Positions 1 to 19,937 of a stretch of DNA of 21,134 bases are shown piece after piece. Position 1 is the stretch's first letter. The number at the start of each line of letters is the position of its first letter. Origin of the DNA: a virus; IMG/VR virus record IMGVR_UViG_3300043786_000854, positions 1 through 21,134 of that record; one strand, 5' to 3'. The notes under the pieces are model-generated. The model saw nothing but the letters and a program-made list of their open reading frames with translations, made no database searches and was not told the origin of the DNA. Position numbers and translations under genes: made by a program.

Positions 1-1
1 A

Positions 2-301: not shown

Positions 302-310
302 GGAGATGAT

Positions 311-3929: not shown

Positions 3930-4593
3930 TTATGGACATGTTGAATATGTTTCTCATATGGGAGATGATTTAACCGTAGTGAACGCTGCGCGAGTGTCTT
4001 TCAATAAGGAAAGTGAATGGGAAAAGCAAGACGGATCTGCTTTCCTTCCCACCAGAGATGAAAAACTAATCAAATATCTGGCCAAGCATAATCACTGGAC
4101 ACCATTTGCACATCCTCAAATTACGATAAGGGTCAAGGCTCCTATATTTGTTCGTGGTCAATTAGGCAAGCATCAGGTTGGGTTTGTGATGAATGAGGTA
4201 TCTCGTAGATATGTTAAGGATGATCCCGAATTCTATATTCCCAAATGGAGGGCCGCACCAACAGACGGAGCAAAACAAGGTAGTTCTGATTTTATCAATT
4301 TGTCTGAATCGGCAGGATTTTCGGTTATATTCCAAGATGTATGTGATTCGGCTCTGGAGGCATACGACTATATGCTTGGCAAGGGAGTGGCCCCAGAGCA
4401 AGCCAGATCCGTTCTACCACAGGCCATGTATACGGAGTGGTGGTGGACGGGAAGCCTCGCAGCGTGGGCTAGGGTCTATACACAGCGTTCTGACGCACAC
4501 TCCCAATGGGAGACGCAGCAGTATGCAAAAGCAATAAATCAAATTATTGCTCCATTGTTTCCAGTATCGTGGAAAGCACTCGTCGGGGAATAA
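3910..4593 (+). CDS. thyX: Flavin-dependent thymidylate synthase ThyX
   Basis: A 227-aa FAD-dependent enzyme that methylates dUMP to dTMP using methylenetetrahydrofolate and NAD(P)H. Family features include the N-terminal VVNAARVSF segment, HNHWTPFAHPQI (the HxxxTPF stretch typical of ThyX), the signature region at residues 82-101 (RGQLGKHQ then NEVSRRY) and a C-terminal arginine-rich segment (PEQARSVLPQAMYTEWWWTG) that matches the conserved QARxxLP substrate-binding motif. The classical signature is RHRxxSxNExSxRY. Here the first half reads KHQVGFVM, lacking the usual serine and one residue longer. AAGG at 3899-3902 precedes ATG 3910 with seven bases between. It is followed after 45 nt by the ribonucleotide reductase gene, so the two form a dNTP-supply pair. 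Confidence 0.95.
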   Translation: MKIQVLDYGHVEYVSHMGDDLTVVNAARVSFNKESEWEKQDGSAFLPTRDEKLIKYLAKHNHWTPFAHPQITIRVKAPIFVRGQLGKHQVGFVMNEVSRRYVKDDPEFYIPKWRAAPTDGAKQGSSDFINLSESAGFSVIFQDVCDSALEAYDYMLGKGVAPEQARSVLPQAMYTEWWWTGSLAAWARVYTQRSDAHSQWETQQYAKAINQIIAPLFPVSWKALVGE

Positions 4594-4596
4594 ATA
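4589..4596 (+). promoter_or_regulatory. Possible late-type promoter octamer AATAAATA over the thyX stop codon
   Basis: The octamer AATAAATA fits the NATAAATA form and includes the thyX stop codon TAA. It is 42 nt before the nrdJ start, in a 45-nt gap that otherwise holds only the nrdJ ribosome-binding site. First-base A is the weakest variant, and nrdJ would normally be an early or middle gene, so this may be chance. Confidence 0.25.
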
Positions 4597-4638
4597 AGAA
4601 GCGCGAAAAAATATCTAAGAAGAATTCAAAGGAGTTTT

Positions 4639-6564: not shown

Positions 6565-6567
6565 ATA
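6560..6567 (+). promoter_or_regulatory. Candidate late promoter CATAAATA over the nrdJ stop codon
   Basis: The octamer CATAAATA (NATAAATA form) contains the nrdJ stop codon TAA and lies 18 nt before the ATG of the 43-aa membrane gene, with an AAAGGAG ribosome-binding site between. It could give the small gene its own transcript. No -35 element is expected for T4-type late promoters, so the call rests on the octamer and its position. Confidence 0.45.
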
Positions 6568-6585
6568 CTATAAAGGAGATTAGTA

Positions 6586-6717
6586 ATGGAACTAATTATA
6601 TCAAGTACATTGGGAACTGTTTTTTATTCGGCTGTTTTGTTTGTTGCTGGCGCATTAGTCGGCAAGGAACTATGGGGCTGGATTTCAAGTAAGTTGCCAT
6701 GGAATAAGAAAAAGTAA
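6586..6717 (+). CDS. 43-aa single-helix membrane protein
   Basis: A short gene with a strong ribosome-binding site AAAGGAG (6572-6578) seven bases before ATG 6586, ending in TAA just ahead of a hairpin terminator, so both ends are well framed. The protein starts MELIISSTLGTVFY, has one hydrophobic helix (about residues 10-26, VFYSAVLFVAGALVG), then an aromatic amphipathic stretch (KELWGWISSKLPW) and a basic tail NKKK. That layout predicts a single-pass inner-membrane protein with the C-terminus in the cytoplasm. Similar tiny one-helix proteins occur in many T4-like phages without known function. It could act on host membrane processes or lysis timing, but nothing in the sequence decides this. 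It is the last gene of the rightward replication and nucleotide operon. Confidence 0.8.
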   Translation: MELIISSTLGTVFYSAVLFVAGALVGKELWGWISSKLPWNKKK

Positions 6718-6734
6718 ACACTATATGTTTCACG

Positions 6735-6764
6735 AAAGCACCCCCCAGAAATGAGGGGTGTTTT
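6735..6764 (+). terminator. Rho-independent terminator after the replication/nucleotide operon
   Basis: Left arm AAAGCACCCC (6735-6744) pairs with GGGGTGTTTT (6755-6764) around a 10-nt loop, giving a 10-bp stem with one G-U pair, and the right arm runs into TTTTCATTT. It sits 18 nt after the small membrane gene and immediately before a late-type promoter, separating two transcription units. Confidence 0.9.
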
Positions 6765-6768
6765 CATT

Positions 6769-6776
6769 TATAAATA
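6769..6776 (+). promoter_or_regulatory. Late promoter TATAAATA for the tail/adhesin gene
   Basis: A perfect T4 late consensus TATAAATA, five bases after the terminator hairpin and exactly five bases before ATG 6782. If transcription starts at the usual distance from such an octamer, the mRNA would begin at or next to the start codon. No Shine-Dalgarno sequence is present in the five bases between. Confidence 0.8.
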
Positions 6777-6781
6777 CCACT

Positions 6782-9328
6782 ATGGCCAGAAAAAATATCA
6801 ATGGAACATTTTATAGACAACTGGGAAATGGGTTTTGGCAAAATGAAATAACTGGTAGTGCTGTAAACTCATTTGCTTTTGACATTATCAAAAGATTTCC
6901 GAATGGATATCCTATTTCTCAACCATTATCGTCAAATGAATACAATACTAGTGAGATCTGGGTGTCCTCATGGCTACCAACCGACCCAGACGCAAATGTT
7001 TCTGGATTTGGTCTTGTGCGTCAGACGGCTGGTTTAGAAGGTGGGGCTACAGCAAGCAGTCTTGCCGAAAACATGGGTAATGTGAATAGGTTTGAATATA
7101 TCAAACCAGCAGTGTACTTCATGAAATGTGCTGGTGACGGTGGTTTTGAAGCGGACTATGCGCCAGTTGGAAATCAAGGAGCAACAGGTATGATTAATGC
7201 CAGTTGTTTTTCTCCGTATAATACAACTGGTGGAAGAATGGCCGCAATAAAGGATAGGCTTTTGGAATTGCCAAAAGGTAAAAGATCTTTAAATCCACGA
7301 AGATATGATCAAGGTGATATGTATGATTCTTCATATAGAGCAGGAGCAACATACTGGGATAATTTCTCAAACGGTGTAACTGGAAACATTTTCGCCAATA
7401 GTATTGGTGCTACATTGTCTAATGATTTCAGATTAATATTACAAAACTTGAAGAATATAGGTGGTGATGTTGACTATATCACATTCGATCTGGAAGAAGT
7501 AGGACCAAAGGCACAATACAGTGCTGGTGCTGCCGATGCTCTCTTTGATGCAAGGGTAAACGCAATCGTTGCTAACCCTAATTACAATCAACCTTATTTC
7601 ACTGGTCAGACATTTTCTCAGATCCTATCTGAATTTGCTGGATTTACATTAAACGATATATTAAACGGCAATTCACACCCACAACTAAATTCATCTTATA
7701 TTTACTGGGACAGAGCGATAACTTCTAATTTTGCCGCATGGACCAATGAGTTCTTGGTAAAACCAGCAAAATTGGTATTTCCAGAAGTTAATGTAGCAAA
7801 TTATAATGGATATTCAACGGGTGCTACAAATGATAATTTCTTTTATGACACAGGGTTTCATCCTGCTAGATTTAATTCTGTAGTTGGGGAAGGACAATCC
7901 CCCGAATTGTATGGGGGTATAAGATTCCCAGACATATACGGAATATTGATATCTGATCCAACAAAAATATACAGAACAGATGTTCCAGGATTCACTACTA
8001 TTGATGGCGGTGTTCAAAATACTGCATGGAACAATCTTCTGGTTCTTATACAAAATGCAAGATCAATGAAGAGACAATCACCCGAATTGGCACTTCGTCC
8101 TTGGATTGCAAGTATAAACTTCAACGAAACCCTTGTGGTTACTCCACCATGGATAGAAAATAGTGTAAGCCGAGGATTGTATTATGAAATGGTTCGTCAT
8201 TTGTGTTTAACTGGCACAGAAATGTTTAATTATTGGAATACCAACGATTGGACAAATTCTTTAAACGCATATAGTTCTCCAAATTGGTTTACAACCAATC
8301 TCACTAGACTCAATAATACTATAGCCGATGTGAATAATCAATTAGGTGGGTGGAGAAATGTTGCACTCAACACAACAAGAATAAATTTCCTTTCTGATTA
8401 TTTGATCTCTGGTGCGCCTATAAACAATGACTCTTATTTGTGGAGAGTTACACCCAAACCAGGAATATCGCTAATTGATGAGGAGTTAAATACAGTAAAT
8501 CTTGATTTAGATGGTGGTGCATGGATAACAACAAACACATCATCTATACCAACATTTACTTCTGTTGTAATAAATCCATGGACTCCTCAACAGTTAGGTG
8601 ATGTTATATTGTGGGTAGATGCAACAGACGCAAGCACTGTAACGACCTCTGGAAGCCCTGCGAGAGTTTCTGAATGGAGAGACATAAGCGGAAATGATAG
8701 ACACTTATCACAGGCTACACCGAATTATAGACCATATTATGAAAGTAACCTGATTGGTGGAAATACGGCAATTAGATTTGATAATTCATCGTCTACTTCG
8801 CTAAGGAATACTTTTGGATTGTATGCACAACCATACACATGGGCGTTTGTGATGAGAACACCAAATACTGGTGATCTATCTCAAAGTGGTATGATTATTG
8901 GTAGCGCAAACATAGACGATCCAACATCGTCTGCCTCTGGTGTGGCCATAAACTACTTCCAAAACGGTATAACATGGGGATTTAATCAGTTTGGTGGTAA
9001 CGGATCTGGTGGGCCTCAAGGAAACTTTACAGAAAATACAAATTACATACTGGTAAATCAATTCTTCGGCATCACCAGTGGTTATAGTGTAAATGGTGTA
9101 AACTCTATTGTAAATTCTGGTGTTAAGCCTTTCTCTGGTATTGAAGTTGGCGCATGGAATGGAAACGGTAATGCCTCTGATACAACAGTCGGTGAATTGG
9201 TGGTAATTCATACCACCTTGACCACAGAAGACAGGCGTTTACTTGAAGGATACTTTGCTCATAAGTGGGGTCTAACGGCTTCTCTGCCGATAAGTCATCC
9301 ATACAGATATAGTCAACCTAGTATATAA
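6782..9328 (+). CDS. Large tail/adhesin-like protein with C-terminal concanavalin A/LamG-type lectin fold
   Basis: An 848-aa protein, probably a tail fibre, receptor-binding or surface-glycan-binding virion protein. The C-terminal part (about residues 605-845) has the pattern of LamG/concanavalin A-like modules of phage and aquatic bacteria: ILWVDATDAS, WRDISGNDRHLSQ, IRFDN, a central WAFVMRT strand, GELVVIHTTLT and the closing EGYFAHKWGLTASLP followed by HPY. The N-terminal 550 residues are rich in Asn, aromatic residues and Gly. They contain DYITFDLEEVG (about 231-241), an acidic strand end that recalls TIM-barrel glycoside hydrolases, but I cannot name a family. No signal peptide or membrane segment is present. 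An upstream in-frame GTG (6758) lies inside the terminator, so ATG 6782 is chosen. It stands directly behind a perfect late promoter, consistent with virion expression. Confidence 0.8.
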   Translation: MARKNINGTFYRQLGNGFWQNEITGSAVNSFAFDIIKRFPNGYPISQPLSSNEYNTSEIWVSSWLPTDPDANVSGFGLVRQTAGLEGGATASSLAENMGNVNRFEYIKPAVYFMKCAGDGGFEADYAPVGNQGATGMINASCFSPYNTTGGRMAAIKDRLLELPKGKRSLNPRRYDQGDMYDSSYRAGATYWDNFSNGVTGNIFANSIGATLSNDFRLILQNLKNIGGDVDYITFDLEEVGPKAQYSAGAADALFDARVNAIVANPNYNQPYFTGQTFSQILSEFAGFTLNDILNGNSHPQLNSSYIYWDRAITSNFAAWTNEFLVKPAKLVFPEVNVANYNGYSTGATNDNFFYDTGFHPARFNSVVGEGQSPELYGGIRFPDIYGILISDPTKIYRTDVPGFTTIDGGVQNTAWNNLLVLIQNARSMKRQSPELALRPWIASINFNETLVVTPPWIENSVSRGLYYEMVRHLCLTGTEMFNYWNTNDWTNSLNAYSSPNWFTTNLTRLNNTIADVNNQLGGWRNVALNTTRINFLSDYLISGAPINNDSYLWRVTPKPGISLIDEELNTVNLDLDGGAWITTNTSSIPTFTSVVINPWTPQQLGDVILWVDATDASTVTTSGSPARVSEWRDISGNDRHLSQATPNYRPYYESNLIGGNTAIRFDNSSSTSLRNTFGLYAQPYTWAFVMRTPNTGDLSQSGMIIGSANIDDPTSSASGVAINYFQNGITWGFNQFGGNGSGGPQGNFTENTNYILVNQFFGITSGYSVNGVNSIVNSGVKPFSGIEVGAWNGNGNASDTTVGELVVIHTTLTTEDRRLLEGYFAHKWGLTASLPISHPYRYSQPSI

Positions 9329-9331
9329 ATA
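9324..9331 (+). promoter_or_regulatory. Late promoter TATAAATA for the RuvC-like gene, over the tail-gene stop codon
   Basis: A perfect TATAAATA whose internal TAA (9326-9328) is the stop codon of the preceding tail gene. It ends five bases before ATG 9337, the same spacing as the octamer at 6769. The five bases TCTAA contain no ribosome-binding site. Confidence 0.75.
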
Positions 9332-9336
9332 TCTAA

Positions 9337-9882
9337 ATGAAGATATGTGGTATTGATTATAGTCTCACAAGTCCAGCAATTTGTGTTCATGAAGGAAATG
9401 AGTTCAGTTATTCAAACTGTAAATTTTACTTTCTGACCAGTGTAAAGAAAAACGCCACTGTGTTTGATGGTAGAATACAAGGTGAATTTATGGATGATTA
9501 TATCCATGAATGTGAAAGATATGATATCATATCAAATTGGGCCATGAATATTATTAAAAGATGCGATAAAATAGCCATAGAAGGTTATGCCTATGGAGCC
9601 AGTGGTAAGGTATTCCATATAGCGGAGAACACTGGTCTATTGAAATATAAGATATGGAACAATGGGAAACCTCTAGAAATTGTTACGCCTTCACATGTGA
9701 AGAAGTTGGCAACGGGAAAAGGTAATGCCGACAAGCGTGGAATGTATGATGCATTTGTGAAAGAAACTGCTGTTGACTTGCAAAAAATAATAAGTCCCAA
9801 TAAAAAAGATATCGGCTCACCAGTAGCCGATATCATTGATTCTTATTTTATATGTAAGGTGTTATTTAAACAAATCCTGTAA
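9337..9882 (+). CDS. RuvC-like Holliday junction resolvase (RNase H fold)
   Basis: A 181-aa protein with the four-acid layout of RuvC-type junction endonucleases: D7 in the first strand (KICGIDYSLTSPA), E82 in IAIEGYAYG, and the DxxD pair D165/D168 in PVADIIDSYF. The conserved segment GKGNADKRGMYDAF precedes the last pair, as in RuvC and poxvirus A22-type enzymes. It would cut branched recombination intermediates before packaging, the job of gp49 (endonuclease VII) in T4. The start is fixed because the first beta strand begins at residue 2, yet there is no Shine-Dalgarno sequence. The gene follows a perfect late promoter at 5 nt. Its 3' end overlaps the convergent leftward gene by 17 nt, and its coding region contains that gene's probable terminator. 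Confidence 0.88.
   Translation: MKICGIDYSLTSPAICVHEGNEFSYSNCKFYFLTSVKKNATVFDGRIQGEFMDDYIHECERYDIISNWAMNIIKRCDKIAIEGYAYGASGKVFHIAENTGLLKYKIWNNGKPLEIVTPSHVKKLATGKGNADKRGMYDAFVKETAVDLQKIISPNKKDIGSPVADIIDSYFICKVLFKQIL
9802..9834 (-). terminator. Leftward terminator buried inside the RuvC-like coding region
   Basis: A perfect 10-bp inverted repeat GATATCGGCT (9808-9817) / AGCCGATATC (9825-9834) with a 7-nt loop. On the minus strand it is followed directly by TTTTTT (9807-9802), the layout of an intrinsic terminator. It lies about 30 nt past the stop of the leftward gene ending at 9866, yet encodes the KKDIGSPVADI part of the RuvC-like protein on the plus strand. Confidence 0.75.
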
Positions 9883-10594
9883 TTTTCTTTGCTTGCAGTG
9901 CGGCAGATATTCTGGCCTGTTCTCTTGCCGCAGCAGCAATAGATGCGGCTCTGCGGACCTTCGTTTCTCTTCTTTGTTGTATGGCTGATCCCCGTAGATT
10001 CTTGGCCTTGTCTGCCGCAGCCTTTTGCGCTTCAGGTGTTATCCCACCAACCGATAGAGGTGTGCTGGGAAAATCTTGCATAGAAATATTAATTTCACTC
10101 TCTCCCTCTTTTGCTGGTTCACCAACAAGTCTTGGAATAGGTGTAAATTGTGGATTTGACTTGTCTTGAGTAAATGTGGCCTTTAATTTACCACCGACAT
10201 TTTGTAGATTACTCAGATTTACAGCGGTTGATAATGCTTCAATTCTTTCTGGTGCATTTTCTGCTGATTTAAGTGGTGGTCTGATTGTTTTTTCTGTTTT
10301 TGGATCTTTTATTGGGAGTCTAGATACTGCTATTTGTGCATCAGACCTTCCAGCAATGTTCTTCAGTCTTGCTTGTTGATGTGCTAGTATTCCAGGTGCT
10401 ATCTTTTTGGCTCGTTCTACACCAATTAATTTTGTGCTTTTCTTACCTTTTCCAGGAATCTTATCAGGAAATAACTCTGGATGTTGTGCCTGTAATTGAG
10501 GAGTAATACCAGAAGTTGCCAATGTTGCTACTAATTCTGCTTCTGTTTTTACTTCAGACAACAATGACTTATAATGTTCTACTAATTTTTTCAT
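9866..10594 (-). CDS. Basic unknown protein with capsid-targeting-like N-terminus
   Basis: A 242-aa protein with no family I recognise. It begins MKKLVEHYKSLLSE, nearly the same as the start of the upstream neighbour (MRELVEHYKQILSE) although the rest differs. This N-terminal peptide ends in LSE, the (L/I)xE form cut by T4 prohead protease gp21. The body is rich in Ala, Lys and Pro, looks partly disordered, and ends in an Ala/Arg-rich helix (about residues 200-235, including AASIAAAAREQARISAAL). No membrane segment or cysteine is present. A TTG lies one codon upstream, but ATG 10594 overlaps the previous stop (TGATG) and is preferred. It is the last gene of the leftward block. I infer an internal head protein; only the N-terminal peptide and location support this. 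Confidence 0.75.
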   Translation of the reverse strand: MKKLVEHYKSLLSEVKTEAELVATLATSGITPQLQAQHPELFPDKIPGKGKKSTKLIGVERAKKIAPGILAHQQARLKNIAGRSDAQIAVSRLPIKDPKTEKTIRPPLKSAENAPERIEALSTAVNLSNLQNVGGKLKATFTQDKSNPQFTPIPRLVGEPAKEGESEINISMQDFPSTPLSVGGITPEAQKAAADKAKNLRGSAIQQRRETKVRRAASIAAAAREQARISAALQAKKITGFV

Positions 10595-10878
10595 CAATCT
10601 GCTCCAGATTGTAGTCTTGCCTTTAATTCTGTTTTTCTTTTGATAAACTGTTCTCTAGGTTTATCTTTTGTTTTTTCTTTTTTGATTCCAGATGTAATTG
10701 GAGTCACACCAGCCTTTATGGCGCGAGAAAAATTAAAGCGAGTATCAGATGCTGGAGTTCCAGTTAAATCTGTTGAAAGTTTTTGGTTTCTGGCTTTTTG
10801 TTTTCTGGCCAGTATTCTTCTTTCTGCTCTCGTAGTTTCAGATAAAATTTGTTTATAATGTTCTACTAGTTCTCTCAT
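10594..10878 (-). CDS. Small basic protein with capsid-targeting-like N-terminus
   Basis: A 94-aa, strongly basic protein of unknown function. The first 14 residues MRELVEHYKQILSE match the N-terminus of the following gene closely and end in the LSE motif. The rest (lysine- and arginine-rich, including RRILARKQKARNQK and EQFIKRKTELKARL) looks helical or disordered and could bind nucleic acid. A purine-rich GAAGAG lies eight bases before ATG 10878, and a perfect TATAAATA is placed 18 nt upstream. The stop overlaps the next start by one base (TGATG). Shared N-terminus with unlike bodies is the pattern expected for proteins using one targeting peptide. Confidence 0.75.
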   Translation of the reverse strand: MRELVEHYKQILSETTRAERRILARKQKARNQKLSTDLTGTPASDTRFNFSRAIKAGVTPITSGIKKEKTKDKPREQFIKRKTELKARLQSGAD

Positions 10879-10879
10879 G

Positions 10880-11425
10880 TTATTTTCTCTTCTTTTTATT
10901 TATATTTTTCTCTGTGTCCTCAAATCCGTCATTGTTGACATCTTTGGTTCTGATCTTGATATAATACCAACCAGCACCCAAAATAACTAAACAATAAAAC
11001 AAAAGAGCATACCAGTTGACTTTCCGAATTGTTATTTCTGTGCCAGTAGGAAGGATAATTTCTGTTTTTTCAGGAACATTTATCGGTGTTATATTAAATG
11101 TCTGAATAGATGTGTTTTCTGGAAGAATAACCTCTGTATTTTGAGGCAGTACCATTTCCTCATACTTTTCTGGTTCTACTTGTACTGACGCGATAGTATC
11201 CTTTGCGAGAGTAACATGGGTTTTTACTGTAGATGGTGTCTGTACTATTACACTACAAGGAATAGACGCTTCAGTTTCTTGTACTAATACAGTTTTTGTA
11301 GGATTAGACAAAACATCAGGAGCCTTATATGTAAGACCTGGCAATGTGACACTAGATTTACAGGAAGCCAGAGTAAATAATAACCAAATTGCCGATAATT
11401 TAAGAATTGTCTTTAGATTCATCAT
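10880..11425 (-). CDS. Probable single-gene spanin: lipoprotein with C-terminal membrane helix
   Basis: A 181-aa protein starting MMNLKTILKLSAIWLLF with a lipobox LASC, so an N-terminal lipoprotein signal peptide with the lipidated cysteine at about residue 22. The centre is a beta-rich periplasmic domain (PENTSIQTFNITP, PTGTEITI). Near the C-terminus is one hydrophobic helix (WYALLFYCLVILGAGWYY) followed by a charged cytoplasmic tail ending KKKRK. An outer-membrane lipid anchor plus a C-terminal inner-membrane helix in one chain is the architecture of unimolecular spanins such as phage T1 gp11, which fuse the two membranes at lysis. The frame is open further upstream to an ATG at 11455, inside the neighbouring gene. 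The ATGs at 11425/11422 behind AGAAGA are preferred. A holin-like gene lies just upstream. The role is inferred, the topology is visible. Confidence 0.7.
   Translation of the reverse strand: MMNLKTILKLSAIWLLFTLASCKSSVTLPGLTYKAPDVLSNPTKTVLVQETEASIPCSVIVQTPSTVKTHVTLAKDTIASVQVEPEKYEEMVLPQNTEVILPENTSIQTFNITPINVPEKTEIILPTGTEITIRKVNWYALLFYCLVILGAGWYYIKIRTKDVNNDGFEDTEKNINKKKRK
10897..10904 (-). promoter_or_regulatory. Late promoter TATAAATA (leftward)
   Basis: A perfect TATAAATA on the minus strand, 18 nt before ATG 10878, lying inside the last codons of the spanin-like gene. Unlike the octamers with 5-nt spacing, it leaves room for a purine-rich ribosome-binding site. It would serve the two genes with paired N-termini. 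Confidence 0.7.
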
Positions 11426-11597
11426 TTTTCTTCTTTCTGTTCCAAAAAATGTCATTCAGCCTTTTCATCATGGCATCGACTTTTTCAGTCGAATCTTTGA
11501 CTTGTGAGGGGTGGAATGATGGATCATCAATATCACCAGCATAATTGATCGTGAACTCTTGCCATTTTTCGCCTAAAAATTCTTTGAATGATTTCAT
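11400..11597 (-). CDS. 65-aa protein starting with a capsid-targeting-like peptide
   Basis: A small protein whose first ten residues MKSFKEFLGE closely resemble the T4 internal-protein targeting peptide MKTYQEFIAE, including the (L/I)xE end where gp21 cuts. The remainder is charged, with a predicted helix (KVDAMMKRLNDIFWNRKKK) and an acidic middle. The ATG overlaps the stop of the holin-like gene as ATGA, and the 3' end overlaps the spanin-like gene by about 26 nt. Placement between holin and spanin candidates could mean a lysis role, but the N-terminus argues for an internal head protein. No hydrophobic segment is seen, so it is not itself a holin or antiholin of the usual type. Confidence 0.72.
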   Translation of the reverse strand: MKSFKEFLGEKWQEFTINYAGDIDDPSFHPSQVKDSTEKVDAMMKRLNDIFWNRKKKNDESKDNS

Positions 11598-12028
11598 GTT
11601 TTATTACTCGCAGAAGCAGAACCAAAGTAGAATCCGACTATAGAAATAAGTATCTGTCTATTTTCCTGTGTAAACAAGTATCCGTTGATTGTTTGGAATA
11701 TTGTTTCCTTTGTCTCTGGGATCAGGCCAAATAACAGTTCAGGATTGATCTGAGTGACTTCGACAACTGTGGGTATACCGAAGAACGGTAGGACGAATGG
11801 AGCCGCTATAGTGCCAAACAAGACCATCAGGACAATGATCTGACGGACGGCCTTCCCAGCGTCTATAGGCACTCTCTGAACGGCCTTGGTACGGCTTTCC
11901 TCGACAAGTTTATTCATCTCAATGAGACGCTTAAAGTTTTCCTGTTCGGCTTGGCTCTTTTGGGCCATATAACGGAAAAGGAACCCTGCGGCAGATCCGC
12001 CGATAAGTGAAAGTAGTTCTGTTGTCAT
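11594..12028 (-). CDS. Holin-like three-helix membrane protein
   Basis: A 144-aa protein with three hydrophobic stretches: residues about 5-21 (LLSLIGGSAAGFLFRYM), about 63-85 (IIVLMVLFGTIAAPFVLPFFG) and about 127-142 (ISIVGFYFGSASAS). A charged coiled segment (residues 23-60, rich in Lys and Glu) separates the first two. The last helix with its YFGS ending recalls the GTA-type three-helix holins, where a yFGsR-like motif follows the final helix. The gene overlaps both neighbours as ATGA. Together with the lipoprotein/membrane-helix gene two positions downstream it forms a plausible lysis pair. No endolysin is recognisable in the window. An alternative is a structural or host-membrane protein; I give holin moderate support. 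Confidence 0.6.
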   Translation of the reverse strand: MTTELLSLIGGSAAGFLFRYMAQKSQAEQENFKRLIEMNKLVEESRTKAVQRVPIDAGKAVRQIIVLMVLFGTIAAPFVLPFFGIPTVVEVTQINPELLFGLIPETKETIFQTINGYLFTQENRQILISIVGFYFGSASASNKT

Positions 12029-12531
12029 TGTGGTTTCTTTCTTTTTAAGATCTTATTTTTAACACGATCCCGTTTATGCATAAACCCAGAATCCATACCA
12101 GCCAAATTTGGATTTGGATCACTGGCCGCACCAGTTACACTAAATCCACCACCCGTACTCATTTCCTCAGTCAAATCAAGTCCTTGAGACTTAAGATAAT
12201 TGTTTATTTCCAAAAGAACAACTTCTGAATCTCCACCCAACATATCAACTTCTTCTGCATACAAAGATATGGCCGTTGTCAGGTTCTTTGCCTTGGCCTG
12301 AATGGATGGGTTGGGAATTTGTTTTACCAGTTTTTTAAGATTTATTATCAGTCTGTAATAAATCGGCACTAATCGACTGTCTTTTAAATAATTACCTTTT
12401 TTGTCGATCAGACCAATTTTGAAGAATTTCATGTCTTCGAAGTCTGTGGTCATGTCTTTGATGAACTTAAAGACGGTAAAAGTATTCACCAGTTTATTTA
12501 AATCAGCAGTTGTGGGTTTTTTACTCTTCAT
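12025..12531 (-). CDS. Unknown 168-aa phage protein
   Basis: A protein of a type often found next to structural genes in large tailed phages, without known function. The N-terminal two thirds are helical (LNKLVNTFTVFKFIKDM, and a central IINLKKLVKQIPNPSIQAKAKNL segment), followed by a Gly/Ser/Asn-rich linker (about residues 128-148) and a basic end (HKRDRVKNKILKRKKPQ). No membrane segment or catalytic motif is visible. Both ends overlap neighbours as ATGA (12528-12531 and 12025-12028), so it is translated in a coupled series with the gene before it and the holin-like gene after it. Probably a minor virion protein. Confidence 0.7.
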   Translation of the reverse strand: MKSKKPTTADLNKLVNTFTVFKFIKDMTTDFEDMKFFKIGLIDKKGNYLKDSRLVPIYYRLIINLKKLVKQIPNPSIQAKAKNLTTAISLYAEEVDMLGGDSEVVLLEINNYLKSQGLDLTEEMSTGGGFSVTGAASDPNPNLAGMDSGFMHKRDRVKNKILKRKKPQ

Positions 12532-12905
12532 TTTATCTCTGATAATAGACTTAGAATATTCTTATCACTCTTTATCGAATCTAGATTAACCTCTGGTATA
12601 TGATCTGGCGTATACCTTAGATGGTCTAAAAATGATTTTAAAGAAGAATGTAATGACTGCGGTATTCTGAAAAACAATATTCTTGAACAGTTTAAAGGTC
12701 CATACACATTTCCCAAAATTATTATATGATTGAGTATGAGCCTTTCTTTTATTTTGGTTGTTTTTTTATATTTCAGTAATAGTCTTTTGATATATTTTAT
12801 TCTGTTTAAATCCTCCTTAAACTCTGAAAACCCTTTACAAGAGGGATTTTCATAGTTCTTCATGGCAAAAAGAATAAAATTGTCTTCGTCTATAGGCTGA
12901 AACAT
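12528..12905 (-). CDS. Conserved phage protein of unknown function
   Basis: A 125-aa protein whose middle (FKEDLNRIKYIKRLLLKYK, then ERLILNHIIILGNVYG) matches a pattern I have seen in many tailed-phage hypothetical proteins: a helix with RIKYIKRL, followed by LILNHIIxLxNVFG. Those proteins are usually annotated only as a domain of unknown function and lie beside structural genes. The protein is helical, with no membrane segment. No Shine-Dalgarno sequence precedes ATG 12905 in the 18-nt gap after the upstream gene; the next in-frame ATG (residue 15) has none either. The stop overlaps the next start (ATGA). The role is unknown. Confidence 0.75.
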   Translation of the reverse strand: MFQPIDEDNFILFAMKNYENPSCKGFSEFKEDLNRIKYIKRLLLKYKKTTKIKERLILNHIIILGNVYGPLNCSRILFFRIPQSLHSSLKSFLDHLRYTPDHIPEVNLDSIKSDKNILSLLSEIK

Positions 12906-12923
12906 AGCAAAAATAAATCTGTA

Positions 12924-13736
12924 TTAGTCTTTTATCGTTTTAACTTTTTTCAATTTACGATGTAATTCTCTCTCTACTTGACTGTGAATATCCCCAGGAA
13001 GAGATTCTCGCTTGATCTTTCCTGCGGTGTGGAGTCTTCGAACGATTTGTTTGGCTGCAAATCTTACTCTTTGCGCGACTTCGTCGCTAGTTCTTCCGTT
13101 TTTAGTGATGTTTTTCATCAATGGCTCAAGAACTTTAGTCTTGATTTCAGGGTGTCTATTTGCCTTACGAATAAGAGAAGCACCCATATGAGATGATTCT
13201 AGAAGAACAGTACCAGTTTCATCATAACTTTCACGAACACTCAAAGATGGTGTTTCTATGTCAATTTTATCAGTGAAACCTGTGCGAGTAATTCCTACAT
13301 CACTGAAATAGAATTTTCCACTTGGTGACTTAGTAAGATCAAAAGTCAACGAAAGTGGTACATAATCCTTACCGCGATCAAATCCATCCATGAGGTTATG
13401 TGTAGGAGTCGTACCGAAGATTTCACCATATCGGTTCAACTGGAAGGTATTGCGTCCGATATTTAATTTGGTTTGATTATTGAAATCAAAGTCAAGACCA
13501 GCATGGTTGATCTTGGCTCTCATGGTTTTTAACGCTTGAATAGGATCAAGATAATCTCCACTCAAATGTGCATTTGCAAATGCGTGAATACGGTTTATTT
13601 GAGACGAATCGTCCCGATAAACACCAGCATCACTGTGGGCAGAACGAGGGAATCCAGACGAGAACCCATTAAATACATTACCGACATCGGCGTATTCATT
13701 TTCTAGAAGTGTTAAGATATTCTTGAAATTTTTCAT
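12924..13736 (-). CDS. Unknown 270-aa protein with capsid-targeting-like N-terminus
   Basis: No family is recognised. The N-terminus MKNFKNILTLLENE has the MK-aromatic start and an LLE end like the other candidate targeting peptides in this block. The middle looks globular with alternating strands (TKLNIGRNTFQLNRYGEIFG, YVPLSLTFDL, KFYFSDVGI), and the C-terminal third is basic and helical (QRVRFAAKQIVRRLHTAGK, then a lysine-rich end KLKKVKTIKD). ATG 13736 overlaps the upstream stop as ATGA, with AAAGGA a few bases before it. If the first 12 residues are removed by a prohead protease, a mature protein of about 258 residues remains. I infer an internal or injected virion protein; function is unknown. 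Confidence 0.72.
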   Translation of the reverse strand: MKNFKNILTLLENEYADVGNVFNGFSSGFPRSAHSDAGVYRDDSSQINRIHAFANAHLSGDYLDPIQALKTMRAKINHAGLDFDFNNQTKLNIGRNTFQLNRYGEIFGTTPTHNLMDGFDRGKDYVPLSLTFDLTKSPSGKFYFSDVGITRTGFTDKIDIETPSLSVRESYDETGTVLLESSHMGASLIRKANRHPEIKTKVLEPLMKNITKNGRTSDEVAQRVRFAAKQIVRRLHTAGKIKRESLPGDIHSQVERELHRKLKKVKTIKD

Positions 13737-14215
13737 TTATTGTCCTTTTTTCCTTTTTTCTTGCCTCTGAATGACCCAGCCTTCAATGCTCCACCCTTAC
13801 CTTTTCTGGTAGATCCAAGAGTCACGAAAGTACATGCTCTGGCTCGTCTTTCTTTTGCGTTATCAGTACCACCGCGTTTCTTCTCTTTGAAGTATTTGTT
13901 GAATCCTTTAAGTTTTTTTGCCTTGAAACACTTGTTTCTGGCAGCAACTTCAGCACGGGACATTGGCTGATTTTCCTTATTGATAACATCACCTTCTGAA
14001 AGATATGATTCCTTTACGGATTTTTTATCCTTTTTCTTGCTCTTTTTCTTAGCAATGATGGTGGCAACTGCCATTTTCACTGCCTTGCCACGCTTTCCGT
14101 AGCGTTCAGACCAACCATCACCTTTTTCTAATTTCTTGGCTACTTTTTCCTTTTCGCCCTTTTCGGTTTTGGTTAGTTTTCTCTCTAGTAAAGTTTTAAG
14201 AGTAAGTTTTGGCAT
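13733..14215 (-). CDS. Very basic small protein, probably internal head protein
   Basis: A 160-aa protein dominated by Lys, Arg and Gly. It starts MPKLTLKTLLERKL, a candidate targeting peptide with an LLE motif. Then come GDGWSERYGKRGKAVKMAVA (a WxxRYGxR pattern seen in other small phage proteins), the lysine run KKKSKKKDKKS, a SYLSE segment, MSRAEVAARNKCFKAKK, and a CTF segment before a Gly/Lys tail. The SRAE-ARR-like part and the later Arg/Cys segment recall the C-terminal module of the 679-aa protein upstream, which has LSRAEARRQG and RKRFCARM. The composition suggests DNA or RNA binding or charge neutralisation in the head. The frame has an earlier ATG at 14224, but AGGA (14225-14228) abuts that ATG, whereas it lies nine bases before ATG 14215. 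Confidence 0.72.
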   Translation of the reverse strand: MPKLTLKTLLERKLTKTEKGEKEKVAKKLEKGDGWSERYGKRGKAVKMAVATIIAKKKSKKKDKKSVKESYLSEGDVINKENQPMSRAEVAARNKCFKAKKLKGFNKYFKEKKRGGTDNAKERRARACTFVTLGSTRKGKGGALKAGSFRGKKKGKKDNK

Positions 14216-14224
14216 ATTATTCAT

Positions 14225-14228
14225 TCCT
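14225..14228 (-). promoter_or_regulatory. Ribosome-binding site deciding between two starts
   Basis: AGGA on the minus strand touches ATG 14224 directly but is nine bases from ATG 14215. Normal spacing favours 14215, which also gives an N-terminus (MPKL) similar in form to the other candidate targeting peptides of the block. Confidence 0.55.
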
Positions 14229-14235
14229 AGTACTA

Positions 14236-14243
14236 TATTTATC
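14236..14243 (-). promoter_or_regulatory. Candidate late promoter GATAAATA (leftward)
   Basis: GATAAATA fits the NATAAATA late form and lies in the 37-nt gap after the 679-aa gene, 20 nt before ATG 14215. With AGGA between, it would give a short leader. It could start a transcript covering 14215 down to about 10880. Confidence 0.55.
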
Positions 14244-14261
14244 TGTAAACTATTTTGTTAA

Positions 14262-16301
14262 TTATGATCTACATCCCCATACTCTTAACGATGCATTTAT
14301 CTTAGATTTTGGATCTCTTGCAGTTTTTGCGCTAGTGCGTTTTCGTTTCATACCGATCATTCTGGCACAAAACCTCTTTCTTCTAGCCTGAGTTTTCTTT
14401 GATAATTTACTAAACCCACCTTTACGCTTTGCTTCATCCTTGGTTTCTATGCCAGCATGAATACCTTGTCTTCTGGCTTCGGCACGGGAAAGACCCCCTT
14501 CTGGGTGGTTTATACCTTTTTTGAAGCCTTTATATGGTTTAGTTTCTTTCTTTTCTTCGGAGATGAATTTAATAAATGATTTCATTTCTGCCATTTCTTT
14601 GATAAGTTGTCTTTTTGATATCATGTCTTTAAAATTATTTATTATGCTATAATTTGATTCTTTTATTTCAGATTTTCTTTGTATTGCTCTCTCGCGAACA
14701 TACGAATTTATATCATTCAATGCTTTATCAATATGTGATGCTGTGGCCTTTGGATGTCTTATTGCTGCGTGTCGAACATCAGCATCTGTATCATTCAATG
14801 CTTTATCAATATGTGATGCTGTGGCATTTGGATGACTCATTGCTGCGTGTCGAACAGTCACTGATTTATCATTCAATGCTTTATCAATATGTGATACTGT
14901 GACATTTGGATGTCTTATTGCTGTGGATCGAATATCCTCAGATTTATCATTCAATGCTTTATCAATATGTGATACTGTGACATTTGGATGTCTTATTGCT
15001 GTCTCGCGAACATACGGATGTGTATCATTCAATGCTTTATCAATATGTGATACTGTGACATTTGGATGTCTTATTGCTGTGGATCGAATATCCTCAGATT
15101 TATCATTCAATGCTTTATCAATATGTGATACTGTGACATTTGGATGTCTTATTGCTGCGGATCGAACAGTCACTGATTTATCATTCAATGCTTTATCAAT
15201 ATGTGATACTGTGGCATTTGGATGTTTTATTGCTGTGTATCGAACAGCATCACTTTTATCATCCAATGCTTTATCAATATGTGATGCTGTGGCCTTTGGA
15301 TGAAACATTGCTGTGTATCGAACAGCCTCATCTTCATCATTCAATGCTTTATCAATATGTGATACTGTGGCATTTGGATGACTTATTGCTGTGAATCGAA
15401 CAACCTTTTTTTTATGATCTAACATTCTGTCCAATATTTCGGGATGCGTATCTATTTTACTATCTGCAAAATGTGCTGCTCCATGGTCACCACCAAACTC
15501 ATCATACATTTTATGCTGTTTTTCTTTAGATAATGTGTTATTTCCTGAAAAGAAATCATATTTTTCTTTTTTTGTTCCTGTTAACAAAGAACTAGTTTGT
15601 TTTTTTACTATTTTAGATTCGTCATCATGAATCACGCTATTGTCAGGTCTTACTATTCCCCGATCACCGAATCCATGGCTTAGAACTGGTGACCCTTTAT
15701 CATTCGTATAAAAAAATATTCCATGACCGTGGCTATAGTGTTTTAAATGAGTTGGTCCGTGTTCTTTTGGAAGAACACACCAAGAACTACCACTACATGT
15801 TTTTCTCAGAGAAGAAGAAATATTTTCATATTCTTTATCATCATTTATATCGCTTTTTGATACATGATATACACCTAATTTTCCGTGTTCTGGATGATCT
15901 ATATCTCCAATTTTATATTTTTCCATTCCTTTCAGTGCAGATGCTTTATTTTTTTGCATATCTAATTGAGGAAAATTTCTAAATGCTTGTGATATTGTAT
16001 CATGTGTATGAGAACTAAGATTTCCAGAAATTAATCCCTCGGTCTTTGCTTTTCTCCATTTACCAAGAGTTGATTTTATAGTTGAGTCATCTTCTCCTGG
16101 TTTGTATGTTTTATCCAATAATTGGCGTGTCAAATATGTGGCTTCATCGTGTCCTTGTGCAAATTGGTGAGCATGTTGTACTAGAGAAGTTGCTTCTTCG
16201 GGGTTTGATTTTACAAGTGGATGCTCTTTGTGGATATTTAAATATCTATTAGCGAATTCATTGGACTTTGCCTCTAGTACAAGTTGGATAAATGATTTCA
16301 T
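14262..16301 (-). CDS. 679-aa repeat protein with LRV/HEAT-like array and basic C-terminal module
   Basis: A multi-part protein. Residues 1-12 (MKSFIQLVLEAK) resemble the targeting peptides of the block. About 30-290 is a globular part with a CSGSSWCVL segment followed by HGHGIFFYTND, which reminds me of Trp-Cys domains in other large-phage proteins; its function is unknown. Residues 301-534 are nine 26-residue repeats of the form VRxTAIRHPNxTVSHIDKAL, like the leucine-rich repeat variant (LRV) and HEAT families, which form curved protein-binding solenoids. After a linker, a second targeting-like peptide (MKSFIKFISE, from residue 573) opens a basic tail with FCARM and TSAKTARDPKSKIN. ATG 16301 overlaps the upstream stop (ATGA), with AAGGG five bases before. 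It may be a fusion of two internal-protein genes or may be cut in the prohead. The molecular target is unknown. Confidence 0.78.
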   Translation of the reverse strand: MKSFIQLVLEAKSNEFANRYLNIHKEHPLVKSNPEEATSLVQHAHQFAQGHDEATYLTRQLLDKTYKPGEDDSTIKSTLGKWRKAKTEGLISGNLSSHTHDTISQAFRNFPQLDMQKNKASALKGMEKYKIGDIDHPEHGKLGVYHVSKSDINDDKEYENISSSLRKTCSGSSWCVLPKEHGPTHLKHYSHGHGIFFYTNDKGSPVLSHGFGDRGIVRPDNSVIHDDESKIVKKQTSSLLTGTKKEKYDFFSGNNTLSKEKQHKMYDEFGGDHGAAHFADSKIDTHPEILDRMLDHKKKVVRFTAISHPNATVSHIDKALNDEDEAVRYTAMFHPKATASHIDKALDDKSDAVRYTAIKHPNATVSHIDKALNDKSVTVRSAAIRHPNVTVSHIDKALNDKSEDIRSTAIRHPNVTVSHIDKALNDTHPYVRETAIRHPNVTVSHIDKALNDKSEDIRSTAIRHPNVTVSHIDKALNDKSVTVRHAAMSHPNATASHIDKALNDTDADVRHAAIRHPKATASHIDKALNDINSYVRERAIQRKSEIKESNYSIINNFKDMISKRQLIKEMAEMKSFIKFISEEKKETKPYKGFKKGINHPEGGLSRAEARRQGIHAGIETKDEAKRKGGFSKLSKKTQARRKRFCARMIGMKRKRTSAKTARDPKSKINASLRVWGCRS
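14867..15001 (-). repeat. First copy of a perfect 135-bp duplication inside the repeat array
   Basis: This stretch is identical base for base to 15023-15157, at an offset of 156 bp (two repeat units). Other units in the array differ at several positions, so this pair marks a recent two-unit duplication. Confidence 0.9.
15023..15157 (-). repeat. Second copy of the perfect 135-bp duplication
   Basis: Identical to 14867-15001. Both copies encode an IRHPNVTVSHIDKALNDKSED unit boundary and most of the next unit. Confidence 0.9.
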
Positions 16302-16932: not shown

Positions 16933-19500
16933 TTACTTCTTTGATCTATTGTGTGATCTAGATGTCACTTTTAAGTTTGATACACTGTTGTTCTTAGGAT
17001 TTCCATCCTTATGGTCAACATCCTTACCATCCCCCTTACTAACTCGTCCTAATCTTTCCATTTTTCGTCTTGCCGTCACTCTTTTCGATCTATTCTTTAT
17101 TTGTGATCTTTTTCCTTGATACTTTCGATACTCTTTTTTATAGTCTCTTTCCCCATTCTTTTTTGTCCAGTATTCTGAAATGAATCTCTTGGCGAATGTG
17201 TAGGATTCAGACATATCATCAATCTCTGGCAATGTATCCGAATTAAATACTGGATGACCCATTACCTTGATAAATTTTTGTTTTCCGTCTACTGTTATAC
17301 TAGTTATCTTTATTCCGTCCCGTTTTTCAACGACATCAAACAACTTAACAGGATTGGTTCGTACCCCGATTGGAGTCGTTTTGAATAGATTAAAGAACAA
17401 TCCTATTCTGGCATCCTGGGTCTTTGCCGAATTTACGGCTGCTTGGATCTCTTTGATGTAGTTCTTATAGTATAGAGCAAGGAATTCTTCGGCAGGGTTT
17501 TGTGGCTTTCTTTCGTCTGCTTTGTCTTGTTCGAAAAGAACTTTCAATACTGAATTCTTGAACATTCCTTCTTTTTGTTGAGTTAATATTCCTTCAGTCG
17601 TTCTTCCACACATACGCATAGAATCAATGTCTTGTGGTAATTCCATATCACCCTGTAGGTAATAATTTACTGTATTGTTCCATGCCGCTTCTTCATACAT
17701 TGTGCCGCAATGGTCACATTTAAAGTTGATGTCAAGAGTCAACATTTCAGTGTCAATCATCTCGTCTATAAGACTTTCATTCAACTGAGATATTTTTAGT
17801 TCTTGTGAATCATCATCAATTACAAGAAGATAGTTGGCCGATGCCATTGGTTCTTCAAACTTAAGTTTACCAGTTAATGATTCATGGTAGAATAACTTCA
17901 TTGCCACCCGATTATTTGAGAAAATATCATGAAGTCTCTTATATACCTCTATCTTTATTGCTTCTATCTTATGGGCATATAACTCAATCTCTTCTTCTGT
18001 GTTTGCAGCCGCACGATTGAGCATTATATTGTTTTGATATGGAACAGCCGCATCTCCGATAACTCTGTCGAGATATTTCTTGAAATCATTGATCGAACGG
18101 TGCATATTCGACAATTCTTTCTTATCTGCTTCGGATAATGTCTCTTCGTCTCCTAATAGACTACCGTAACCACCATGAAGATGACCCTGAATCTCCGCAT
18201 TCACTGTTTCAAATAAGGCACGAAGATCACCATTCATCTTTCCATCAATTAAGTGAGATCTGCCAAATTTGATGTTTAACTTAACAATTTGTTCAGGTGG
18301 TTCAATACCGAACGAATCACACACATTCTTTCCCTTGGTACAGGAATGAACAAGTGCTATATCTGCTTTGGGGAAATTATTGACCGACCCATACTTGAGC
18401 CAAAGTTCCGATACTTTGGCCTCTTCGCGTTCAATCACCTGTAATTCATATTCGTTCAAATTTCTTCCCGTGACAGAAATGAATTCCTTGGCCAACTTTT
18501 GTGCCAATTCATTACCAAAGGTCTGCATGTTTTCAGAGAACATGTATTCATTGGCCTGTTCTGGTGTAAGAATACCAGCCTTGACCTGTGCCTTGATATC
18601 CATTCCCTTCATCATATTGATTGTTGCTGCCAAAATCCATTTGGCATTGCTTGAATCAATCTGAGTATTATCAAGAACTGGCTGACCACCTGGAAGGCTC
18701 AGTTGTTGCTGTTGCTGGGCTATTGGTTGATTTGGTTGACCTTGACCCCCACCAGCGGCTTGCTGTTGTGGCTGTTGCTCCCCTGTTTGCTGAGTGCCTA
18801 GAATTCTATCGGAAGTCAATGTTCTCTTAAATGATGGATCTTGTGAGACACGCAAAGCGACCGAATAACTCATGTCTTGTGGTTTTACGATAGGGACATG
18901 TTTATCTGTTTCATATGAATCTTTATCAACAATAATCAAATTTCCAGTTGGATCACGCACAACCATGGCCATCTTTGATGGGTCCATTTCGCGGATTTCT
19001 TTTTCTTTTTCTCGTTGTTTTTGCTTTCGTAGACGAGCCGAAACACGATCATTCTTTGGATTAATATCCTGTTCGATTATGTAATTTTCACGAACTCCCC
19101 GAGGACGATTGATTTTTTTAATTCTGTCTGATTCTCTTTTTGTTACCCTTGGCATTATCTGTGAAACCAGTTTTCCGATAAATCCCTTTCTGCGATTGAT
19201 TGCAGCGTCGATTCTGGCTCTCTGGGCATATGATGCCTTGCGAATATCTCCACTATAAAGTCTTCGTCTCAAAGCACTACGAACCTCTCTATAGGCTCTT
19301 TTCTTCAAATCCTTGCCACTTTTACGCCTTCGGGATCTGGCCTTTCGTAGAAATGCTCTTCTCTTAGCGGTTCTTTTCGCTGCTCTCGCAAGTTTAATTC
19401 TTGTCTGTACGGATACTTCTTCATCCAATTGATTACTGGCGATAAAGTCATCAAATTCTTTTATGTCGAACCATTCAGGTAAATAAGTAAATTCGTGCAT
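16933..19500 (-). CDS. 855-aa protein with basic N-terminus and HNH-like C-terminus
   Basis: A large protein in several parts. About 35-130 is an extremely Arg/Lys-rich helical region (RTAKRRAFLRKARSRRRK). A Gln/Gly-rich linker lies at about 237-275. A helical globular middle follows with PKADIALV (D380) and, 31 residues on, LNIKFGRSHL (K411), a spacing that could be a PD-(D/E)XK-like core but is unproven. A CDHC pair sits at about residue 600. The C-terminus is an HNH-type motif: D829-H830, DGNPKNN, and a final HN pair (851) in SNLKVTSRSHNR. HNH domains cut DNA, often as homing or packaging nucleases. The gene stands behind a late-type octamer with 5-nt spacing and no ribosome-binding site. 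A virion-associated nuclease or DNA-binding structural protein is plausible. It does not match any T4 protein I know. Confidence 0.75.
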   Translation of the reverse strand: MHEFTYLPEWFDIKEFDDFIASNQLDEEVSVQTRIKLARAAKRTAKRRAFLRKARSRRRKSGKDLKKRAYREVRSALRRRLYSGDIRKASYAQRARIDAAINRRKGFIGKLVSQIMPRVTKRESDRIKKINRPRGVRENYIIEQDINPKNDRVSARLRKQKQREKEKEIREMDPSKMAMVVRDPTGNLIIVDKDSYETDKHVPIVKPQDMSYSVALRVSQDPSFKRTLTSDRILGTQQTGEQQPQQQAAGGGQGQPNQPIAQQQQQLSLPGGQPVLDNTQIDSSNAKWILAATINMMKGMDIKAQVKAGILTPEQANEYMFSENMQTFGNELAQKLAKEFISVTGRNLNEYELQVIEREEAKVSELWLKYGSVNNFPKADIALVHSCTKGKNVCDSFGIEPPEQIVKLNIKFGRSHLIDGKMNGDLRALFETVNAEIQGHLHGGYGSLLGDEETLSEADKKELSNMHRSINDFKKYLDRVIGDAAVPYQNNIMLNRAAANTEEEIELYAHKIEAIKIEVYKRLHDIFSNNRVAMKLFYHESLTGKLKFEEPMASANYLLVIDDDSQELKISQLNESLIDEMIDTEMLTLDINFKCDHCGTMYEEAAWNNTVNYYLQGDMELPQDIDSMRMCGRTTEGILTQQKEGMFKNSVLKVLFEQDKADERKPQNPAEEFLALYYKNYIKEIQAAVNSAKTQDARIGLFFNLFKTTPIGVRTNPVKLFDVVEKRDGIKITSITVDGKQKFIKVMGHPVFNSDTLPEIDDMSESYTFAKRFISEYWTKKNGERDYKKEYRKYQGKRSQIKNRSKRVTARRKMERLGRVSKGDGKDVDHKDGNPKNNSVSNLKVTSRSHNRSKK

Positions 19501-19505: not shown

Positions 19506-19513
19506 TATTTATG
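19506..19513 (-). promoter_or_regulatory. Late promoter CATAAATA for the 855-aa gene
   Basis: CATAAATA on the minus strand ends exactly five bases before ATG 19500, the same geometry as the plus-strand octamers at 6769 and 9324. It lies just beyond the terminator of the upstream leftward cluster. No Shine-Dalgarno sequence is present before the ATG. Confidence 0.65.
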
Positions 19514-19556: not shown

Positions 19557-19937
19557 TCAATCTGGGTCATCCCCAGGTCTTACCCAAGGTATTTCACCCT
19601 TGAACTTAAATCCCTTATGGTGCGCTCTGTTTCCTGCCATCAGATCATACATTGCAGGACGAGTTAAATTGTGGGTGTTGCAGAATTCATACATGTTATC
19701 AACCATGTAAGTCACCCCATTCTTGTCTTCGAAGATGAACTTGCGACGAATCTGTACTGGCTTCTTGGGTACTTCTTTATCTTCCCAAATGAAGGTGGTT
19801 CTACCCTGTTTCACGAACTTCCCTCCATGCACCTCCGTGAACTTTTCCCTATAATAAGCAGAACGAGAATTATCATTGCAATAAACCCAGGTTGGAGTAT
19901 ACTTCTTATTCACATCTTCTTTTTTCATGGGGATCAT
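19557..19937 (-). CDS. NUMOD-like DNA-binding protein
   Basis: A 126-aa protein. The C-terminal half has the pattern of NUMOD1/IENR1 repeats found beside homing endonucleases: FEDKNGVTYMVDNMYEFC, then HNLTRPAMYDLMAGN (helix-turn-helix) and HHKGFKFKG, where the family usually shows HKGW. No nuclease domain (HNH, GIY-YIG) is visible in the N-terminal half, which reads TPTWVYCNDNSRSAYYREKF and contains a basic GRTTFIWEDK part. The protein may be a remnant of a homing endonuclease or a stand-alone DNA-binding protein. ATG 19937 overlaps the stop of the exonuclease gene as ATGA, with AAGGA nine bases upstream, suggesting coupled expression with the nuclease. Confidence 0.68.
   Translation of the reverse strand: MIPMKKEDVNKKYTPTWVYCNDNSRSAYYREKFTEVHGGKFVKQGRTTFIWEDKEVPKKPVQIRRKFIFEDKNGVTYMVDNMYEFCNTHNLTRPAMYDLMAGNRAHHKGFKFKGEIPWVRPGDDPD

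Follow-up and report, generated by a model that had tools for sequence, protein, structure and literature searches.

What does a virus do with a long protein that begins as a strongly basic chain and ends in an HNH nuclease motif? The question is raised by the gene at positions 16933..19500 (minus strand; ATG at 19500, stop codon at 16933-16935) of a 21,134-nucleotide stretch of viral DNA, which is the entire IMG/VR record IMGVR_UViG_3300043786_000854 and is referred to here as the window. According to the list of open reading frames (ORFs), the frame of 855 amino acids is intact on the minus strand only, while the plus strand of the same interval is full of stops. We propose, with a probability of roughly 0.57, that the product is an internal-head protein of the ejection type, packaged into the virion of a T4-like marine phage, partly trimmed in the process and carrying nuclease modules. 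The packaging of the window protein itself is something that we infer, and the evidence for it, namely the leaders of homologues and the virion proteomics of relatives, is indirect.

The central part of the protein, residues 279-642 (17575..18666, minus strand), is predicted to have the fold of the HinP1I/MspI/HhaI restriction endonucleases. The initial annotation had suspected a second nuclease core around D380 and K411, and both residues indeed lie, as PKAD at 377-380 and NIK at 409-411, inside the region now modelled with a restriction-endonuclease fold. The family had to be approached indirectly. A tblastn search of 50,697 phage records with the whole protein (expectation value E up to 0.01) matched seven records, in the HNH tail only; a whole-protein pattern search of the viral contig collection gave no match, and relatives, including the loci L004-L012, were reached through searches with neighbouring genes instead. 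Likewise, the middle domain of the window protein had no tblastn match in phage records, and its family was reached via the relative L004, whose middle, used as query, found nine phage records, four from Melnitz and sister isolates, two from HTVC008M, two from S-RIM50 (E 0.06) and one from a Microcystis phage (E 0.4). Against a profile built from three sequences (Melnitz, HTVC008M and L004), the window domain scored an hhalign probability of 96.9 and an E of 2e-10. Against a profile free of L004, the further relative L005 and the window domain itself, the values were 51 and 1.5e-4, as compared with an E of 0.43 for the shuffled domain and a lowest E of 0.019 among 13 shuffled controls; gp064 of S-RIM50 matched the same profile with an E of 2.1e-5. 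In a scan of viral contigs, 392 of 498 candidate stretches encoded relatives of this nuclease family. We kept 80 of these loci, read 53 for leaders and aligned 31 with the window protein, L004 and L005, giving 34 rows.

The structural comparisons agree on one group of enzymes. The AlphaFold model of the window domain has a mean predicted local distance difference test score (pLDDT) of 71.1, and that of a stand-alone relative, L036, one of 81.3, with the leader residues 1-10 under 50. In Foldseek searches, HinP1I was the top match in the PDB for the window model (E 2.7e-3, probability 0.94; next E 0.24) and MspI for L036 (E 2.6e-3, probability 1.00; next E 0.52). VIA-align gave the window model Z scores of 8.4, 8.3 and 8.2 for HinP1I, MspI and HinP1I chains (185 residues aligned with a root-mean-square deviation of 3.9 for the best), as against 5.7 for the best unrelated chain; for L036, the same chains scored 10.9, 10.6 and 10.0, followed by the HhaI endonuclease at 6.8 and then by a Cas4-family nuclease at 3.0. 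A Z of about 8 is ordinary when taken alone, and the assignment rests on the gap to unrelated chains together with the agreement of the two models, which share one sequence set and are in this sense not independent; what is more, the comparison covers the families listed by the structure search. At the level of sequence, a search of the PDB with the family profile gave three matches (best E 0.067), none of them a nuclease by name, and L036 had no match in PHROGs at E 0.01. The family gene is labelled as a hypothetical protein in the records of HTVC008M, Melnitz and S-RIM50. Proteins in the corresponding slot of S-SCSM1, Syn19, phiM12 and DLP6, which by eye share a PxD...SxK likeness, had no hhalign match and were dropped as relatives; nor does the virion protein that S-SCSM1 encodes in the adjacent slot match the nuclease family by hhalign.

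Is this core still an enzyme in the window protein? The P, K and D of the PKxD motif (D380 codon at 18361..18363, minus strand) and the K of the SxK motif are present in 34 of 34 rows, and G116, E212 and G216 (L036 numbering) are also invariant. The N409-I410-K411 codons lie at 18268..18276 (minus strand), and here the window row alone has N two positions before the lysine, where 32 rows have S; it is also alone in having H where 33 rows have Q. Finally, a Glu of helix 1 that is found in 33 of the 34 rows is replaced by Lys in the window row; the alignment of helix 1 is uncertain, and an alternative pairing with L004 likewise places Lys in the window protein. D380 and K411 were assigned by the family alignment. 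HinP1I and MspI have atypical residues before x-K, although one review places N in MspI at the position of the usual lysine. Since Asp and Lys are kept while the conserved Glu is lost, the predicted core may have reduced or changed activity or do no more than bind DNA. These substitutions, together with the very basic N-terminus, favour a different explanation, according to which the protein is an internal head protein of the DNA-condensing or scaffold type, its core decayed to DNA binding and its HNH tail a passenger without a role for the phage. The conservation of the P, K and D of the first motif and of the K of the second in all rows speaks against such decay, and the HNH tail bears on the same issue from both sides.

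This tail occupies residues 781-855 (16936..17160, minus strand). Pfam HNH_3 matches residues 824-851 with 29.7 bits, as compared with a cut-off of 24.8 (L004 and L005 stay just under it, with 24.4 and 21.9), and phrog_4590 matches residues 781-854 with an E of 8.8e-14; altogether, ten PHROGs families match the window protein, all but phrog_23027 at the HNH end. The initial annotation had read the motif as D829-H830, N838 and N851, of which N838 has no equivalent and has to give way to N842. Namely, in a weak alignment (E 0.28) with I-HmuI (1u3e), D829-H830 fall on D74-H75 and N842 on N87; the alignment ends ahead of the last N, with N851 expected on position 96. The H and the N residues 12 and 21 positions after it are retained in 12 of the 12 HNH copies that we compared; with a nuclease fold predicted in the middle as well, the initial annotation passed both of the checks that it had named. 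The Asp ahead of the His is retained in the five copies at or near a C-terminus (the window protein, L004, L005, L009 and L010) and is Gly in the seven that are embedded in longer polyproteins. In all of these seven (L056, L057, L065, L069, L070, L082 and L085), EPRLR follows, in four of them as EPRLRE. The predicted catalytic quartet D829-H830...N842...N851 (16948..17016, minus strand), whose counterparts in I-HmuI we take to be catalytic, is thus complete in the window protein and the other four terminal copies, a point against the passenger explanation. On its side stand the varied positions of HNH modules in neighbouring polyproteins, the loss of the Asp in 7 of 12 copies, and the similar HNH ORFs in small phage genomes of 34-42 kilobases (kb). 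On balance, we consider a merely condensing or scaffolding head protein unlikely, and of the two modules the HNH appears the likelier active enzyme.

Ahead of the nuclease core lie the two compositionally unusual regions that the initial annotation had pointed out, and both were borne out. Residues 28-135 (19096..19419, minus strand) contain 40 Lys or Arg against 7 Asp or Glu, and a Gln-rich linker follows at residues 230-278 (18667..18813, minus strand), with 17 Gln in residues 230-290. The basic segment matches phrog_23027, a family of unknown function, at residues 23-134 (E 2.9e-5). In a search of 96 loci, a profile of the segment picked out 54 ORFs, seven of them members of the profile itself. 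A gene for it is present in 46 of the 80 nuclease loci, in 43 of these on the same strand and at most 4.5 kb downstream, and in 40 of the 48 loci with at least 3 kb of downstream sequence; it is a separate small gene in L007, L008, Melnitz (L014) and HTVC008M (L013). Next to the nuclease gene of Melnitz stands another ORF of the same gene island, annotated as hypothetical (L014:9273-10526), which matches DUF6267 (PF19782, E 3.6e-105) and by eye is ligase-like.

The same parts are joined differently in the two composite relatives. In L005 (1192 amino acids), a cytidylyltransferase-like nucleotidyltransferase domain comes first, then the basic segment and, in the middle, a region with weak similarity to the nuclease family (hhalign E 0.005, as compared with 0.21 after shuffling); the HNH module follows. 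L004 (939 amino acids) begins with a sequence whose likeness to cytidylyltransferases is weaker; its middle clearly belongs to the nuclease family (E 6.7e-22), the HNH module is present, and a profile search found no basic segment in it. By blastp, the nucleotidyltransferase domain of L005 matches Syn19_174, annotated as T4-GC190 (E 3e-53), SSCSM1_91 (2e-48) and gp154 of S-CREM2 (6e-34), and that of L004 matches them more weakly (5e-7, 1e-8 and 0.003, respectively). Members of this fusion-partner family have been found in the virions of three cyanophages: the T4-GC190 family in S-SM1 (PMC3037559), SSCSM1_91 in S-SCSM1 (PMC9602691) and gp154 in S-CREM2, with three unique peptides (Table 3 of PMC10665884).

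How would such proteins enter a head? In T4, the prohead protease gp21 cleaves after L/I-x-E, as described in PMC9026906, and a variety of proteins, foreign nucleases among them, can be brought into the head by a short leader (PMC9026906, PMC3012670 and PMC5694885); an engineered staphylococcal nuclease, cited in PMC3012670, is a precedent for a nuclease carried there. For the stand-alone members of the nuclease family, we placed the leader start at the start codon closest to the tblastn match. Of the 35 distinct leaders read in this way, 34 have [LIM]xE no more than four residues ahead of the conserved KAED start. One of the matches, L085, counts solely by virtue of M-F-E at its start codon; L070, the one leader without the motif, possibly has a misplaced start, and L057, where the read began past the KAED anchor, was excluded. 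In Melnitz, the nuclease leader and gp23, the major capsid protein, have FLSE-A in common. In the window protein, the N-terminal segment of residues 1-27 (19420..19500, minus strand) is leader-like, with LPE at 7-9 and LDE at 25-27. The latter, L25-D-E27 (19420..19428, minus strand), would place a possible prohead-protease site directly ahead of the basic segment (motif rule of PMC9026906), and I774-S-E776 (17173..17181, minus strand) another ahead of the HNH module. IKE occurs in L004 at 241-243 and in L005 at 187-189, in both cases shortly ahead of a WF-containing segment that by eye resembles WFDIKEFDDF of the window protein. Among the ORFs of the window, the loose leader rule is obeyed by 6 of the 15 on the minus strand, the strict one by a single one of these, and the loose rule by none of the 8 on the plus strand. 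A gp21-like protease is encoded in 3 of the 8 related contigs searched, including that of L005.

Virion proteomics of cyanophages provides a test of such leaders. The strict pattern had been fixed before the S-CREM2 data (219 ORFs, 52-protein virion list) were examined, and 4 of the 5 ORFs that have it are virion proteins, as compared with 48 of the 214 others (p 0.012); with 24 structural proteins set aside, the figures are 4 of 5 and 24 of 190 (p 0.0016). Genes of virion proteins are also clustered. In S-SCSM1, where we used the 48 virion proteins of the record annotation (45 in the paper) and 282 of 293 features as coding sequences, the island SSCSM1_89-98 holds 7 annotated virion proteins among its 10 genes, as compared with 41 among the other 272 (p 2.2e-4), and in S-CREM2 the island gp154-160 holds 4 of 7, against 48 of 212 (p 0.057), the borders of both having been chosen after viewing the virion tables. 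These observations bear directly on another alternative, namely that the window protein is a late nuclease whose place of work is the cell that produces it, where it would serve in the breakdown of host DNA, in recombination or in packaging, without being carried by the virion. T4-like phages need late nucleases, as is generally held, replication genes stand in the same window, and the window protein lacks a strict leader, all of which would fit such a role; the T4-like leaders of the stand-alone homologues (34 of the 35 distinct N-termini), the virion-borne fusion partner and the virion-rich island of S-SCSM1 would not, and we regard a purely intracellular nuclease as quite unlikely. Two ORFs from the same two phages deserve mention. 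The S-CREM2 virion protein gp12 (L148:7704-10313) is annotated as Cas9, doubtfully, as it has no Pfam match at E 0.1, and it was not used as a relative; an S-SCSM1 ORF among structural genes (L155:44215-44535) has a clear leader, MKTFKQFMSES, and is not annotated as a virion protein.

A number of results, the replaced helix-1 Glu among them, weigh against our proposal of a packaged internal-head protein. Of the two leader patterns, the window protein has the loose one but not the strict one; the loose pattern is also seen in 42 of the 221 ORFs of Melnitz, and its link to presence in the virion is weak in S-CREM2 (13 of 36 against 39 of 183, p 0.049). In S-SCSM1, the strict pattern is found in the virion in 1 of 3 cases, against 47 of 279 (p 0.43), so that the S-CREM2 result was not replicated there, and the loose pattern in 13 of 52, against 35 of 230 (p 0.07). 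The window protein contains 14 L/I-x-E motifs where 8.9 are expected, and for this reason the sites near its domain borders can be due to chance. Neither gp21 nor gp23 was matched in the fragmentary contig G003, which comes from the same phage, the window itself not having been searched for gp21. Finally, the virion mass spectrometry that we found covers no homologue of either the nuclease domain or the basic segment, and the authors of two of the proteomics papers (one being PMC9602691) allow for carry-over from the lysate. The suggestion of the initial annotation that the protein is an injected nuclease thus draws support from the leaders and from the virions of relatives, while the strict leader fails on the window protein and one of the two mass-spectrometry tests is negative. 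Its other suggestion, a structural protein that acquired an HNH tail, is still a serious rival.

If our proposal is right, the window protein would be drawn into the prohead, where a gp21-like protease would cut some of the L/I-x-E sites, possibly releasing the basic segment and the HNH module. The basic segment would keep the protein bound to the packaged DNA, and the protein would be ejected along with the phage genome, to nick or cut DNA once inside the next cell; the HNH module would probably act as a nicking enzyme, and the restriction-type core would be either still active or decayed.

Which DNA might be cut? A restriction-type fold invites one to look at the sites that these phages avoid. 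The window contains no ACGT, AGCT or CCGG, where 30, 40 and 25 are expected from tri- and dinucleotide counts, and the 49-kb contig G003 contains none either (81, 91 and 60 expected); the 157-kb contig of L005 (G002) has no AGCT against 265 expected. Across 50 loci of at least 9 kb, some of them overlapping, 51 of 713 palindromic tetramers with an expectation of at least 10 fall below a tenth of it, as compared with 2 of 5935 non-palindromic pairs. Total or near-total losses occur in the window phage, the contig of L005, G006, G007, Melnitz and HTVC008M. G001, G004, G005 and G008 have the nuclease, yet show no loss of tetramers, and self-restriction by site purging therefore fails as a simple rule; in G008, the hexamer AAGCTT is absent against 31 expected. 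Pairing of the nuclease with a methylase is not general either: Melnitz has a methylase named after HhaI (M.HhaI; L097 4010-5227) 7 kb from its nuclease gene of the HinP1I/MspI/HhaI fold, and no C5 methylase (PF00145) was found in any of the 8 related contigs searched. The Melnitz paper remarks on the methylase, and the passages of it that we found say nothing on the nuclease gene (PMC9004378). One could imagine that marine T4-like phages package and inject a sequence-specific nuclease of the HinP1I/MspI fold against host or rival DNA, with their own genome guarded by purged sites and not by methylation, in which case the purged palindromes of the window phage would include CCGG, ACGT or AGCT, their complete absence being suggestive only. 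We consider this scheme very improbable, and host restriction explains the tetramer losses at least as well.

The surroundings of the gene add several observations. The late expression presumed by the initial annotation was not established: T4-late-like TATAAATA sites with at most one mismatch number 49 in the window, against 39.4 expected, a number attained in 3 of 100 shuffles with 49 sites; the site at 19506-19513 (minus strand) ends 6 bases ahead of the start codon and is uninformative either way. The adjoining 126-residue ORF (19557-19937, minus strand) resembles the NUMOD-like domain of I-HmuI (PF22083, E 8.6e-4, below the cut-off). Further along, at 14262-16301 (minus strand), there is a 679-residue HEAT-like protein, whose gene contains near-identical repeats of 78 base pairs at about 14.7-15.4 kb; it has an internal leader-like MKSFIKFISEE at residue 573, followed by a DUF6321-like end below the Pfam cut-off. 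The contig G003, 99.98-99.99% identical to window positions 1-15069 and thus another assembly of the same phage, stops within these repeats, near 15 kb.

In the partial collection of literature searched, we found neither the window protein nor a family of packaged nucleases with a restriction fold described. If our proposal holds, marine T4-like phages have turned the head-loading route of T4 into a means of bringing DNA-cutting enzymes into the cell as soon as infection begins; the nuclease family involved is common, as the number of its relatives in the contig scan indicates. It would also help to account for a conserved island between helicase and primase genes, made up of uncharacterised genes whose products are in part virion-borne. 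The leaders of the nuclease family are short enough for proteomic and mutational testing in isolates such as Melnitz and HTVC008M.

It remains to set the window protein beside the systems that it resembles. With the type II restriction endonucleases HinP1I, MspI and HhaI, it and its phage family share the predicted fold, the Asp and Lys of the core motif and an atypical residue before x-K, which is S in most of the family and N in the window protein; it differs from them in its fusion to basic and HNH parts, in the absence of any nuclease by name among the PDB matches of the family profile, in the lack of a C5 methylase in the related contigs and in its missing helix-1 Glu. Its tail has the identical D-H-x11-N-x8-N spacing of I-HmuI-type HNH enzymes and scores above the Pfam cut-off, and is, unlike them, the end of a presumed virion-type protein and not a free homing enzyme. 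The virion nucleotidyltransferase of cyanophages (T4-GC190, 'cytidylyltransferase/NMNAT') is fused ahead of the same-chain parts in L004 and L005 and belongs to the same gene island, whereas its domain is absent from the window protein. A further parallel is with the internal head proteins of T4 (IPI, IPII, IPIII and Alt), which have a capsid-targeting sequence and are cleaved by gp21; those described are an ADP-ribosyltransferase, an inhibitor that counters restriction, and others whose role is less well understood (PMC9026906, PMC3012670 and PMC5694885). The stand-alone homologues resemble them in their short leaders ending in L/I-x-E; the cargo here is nuclease-like, however, and the window protein's own leader is non-canonical.

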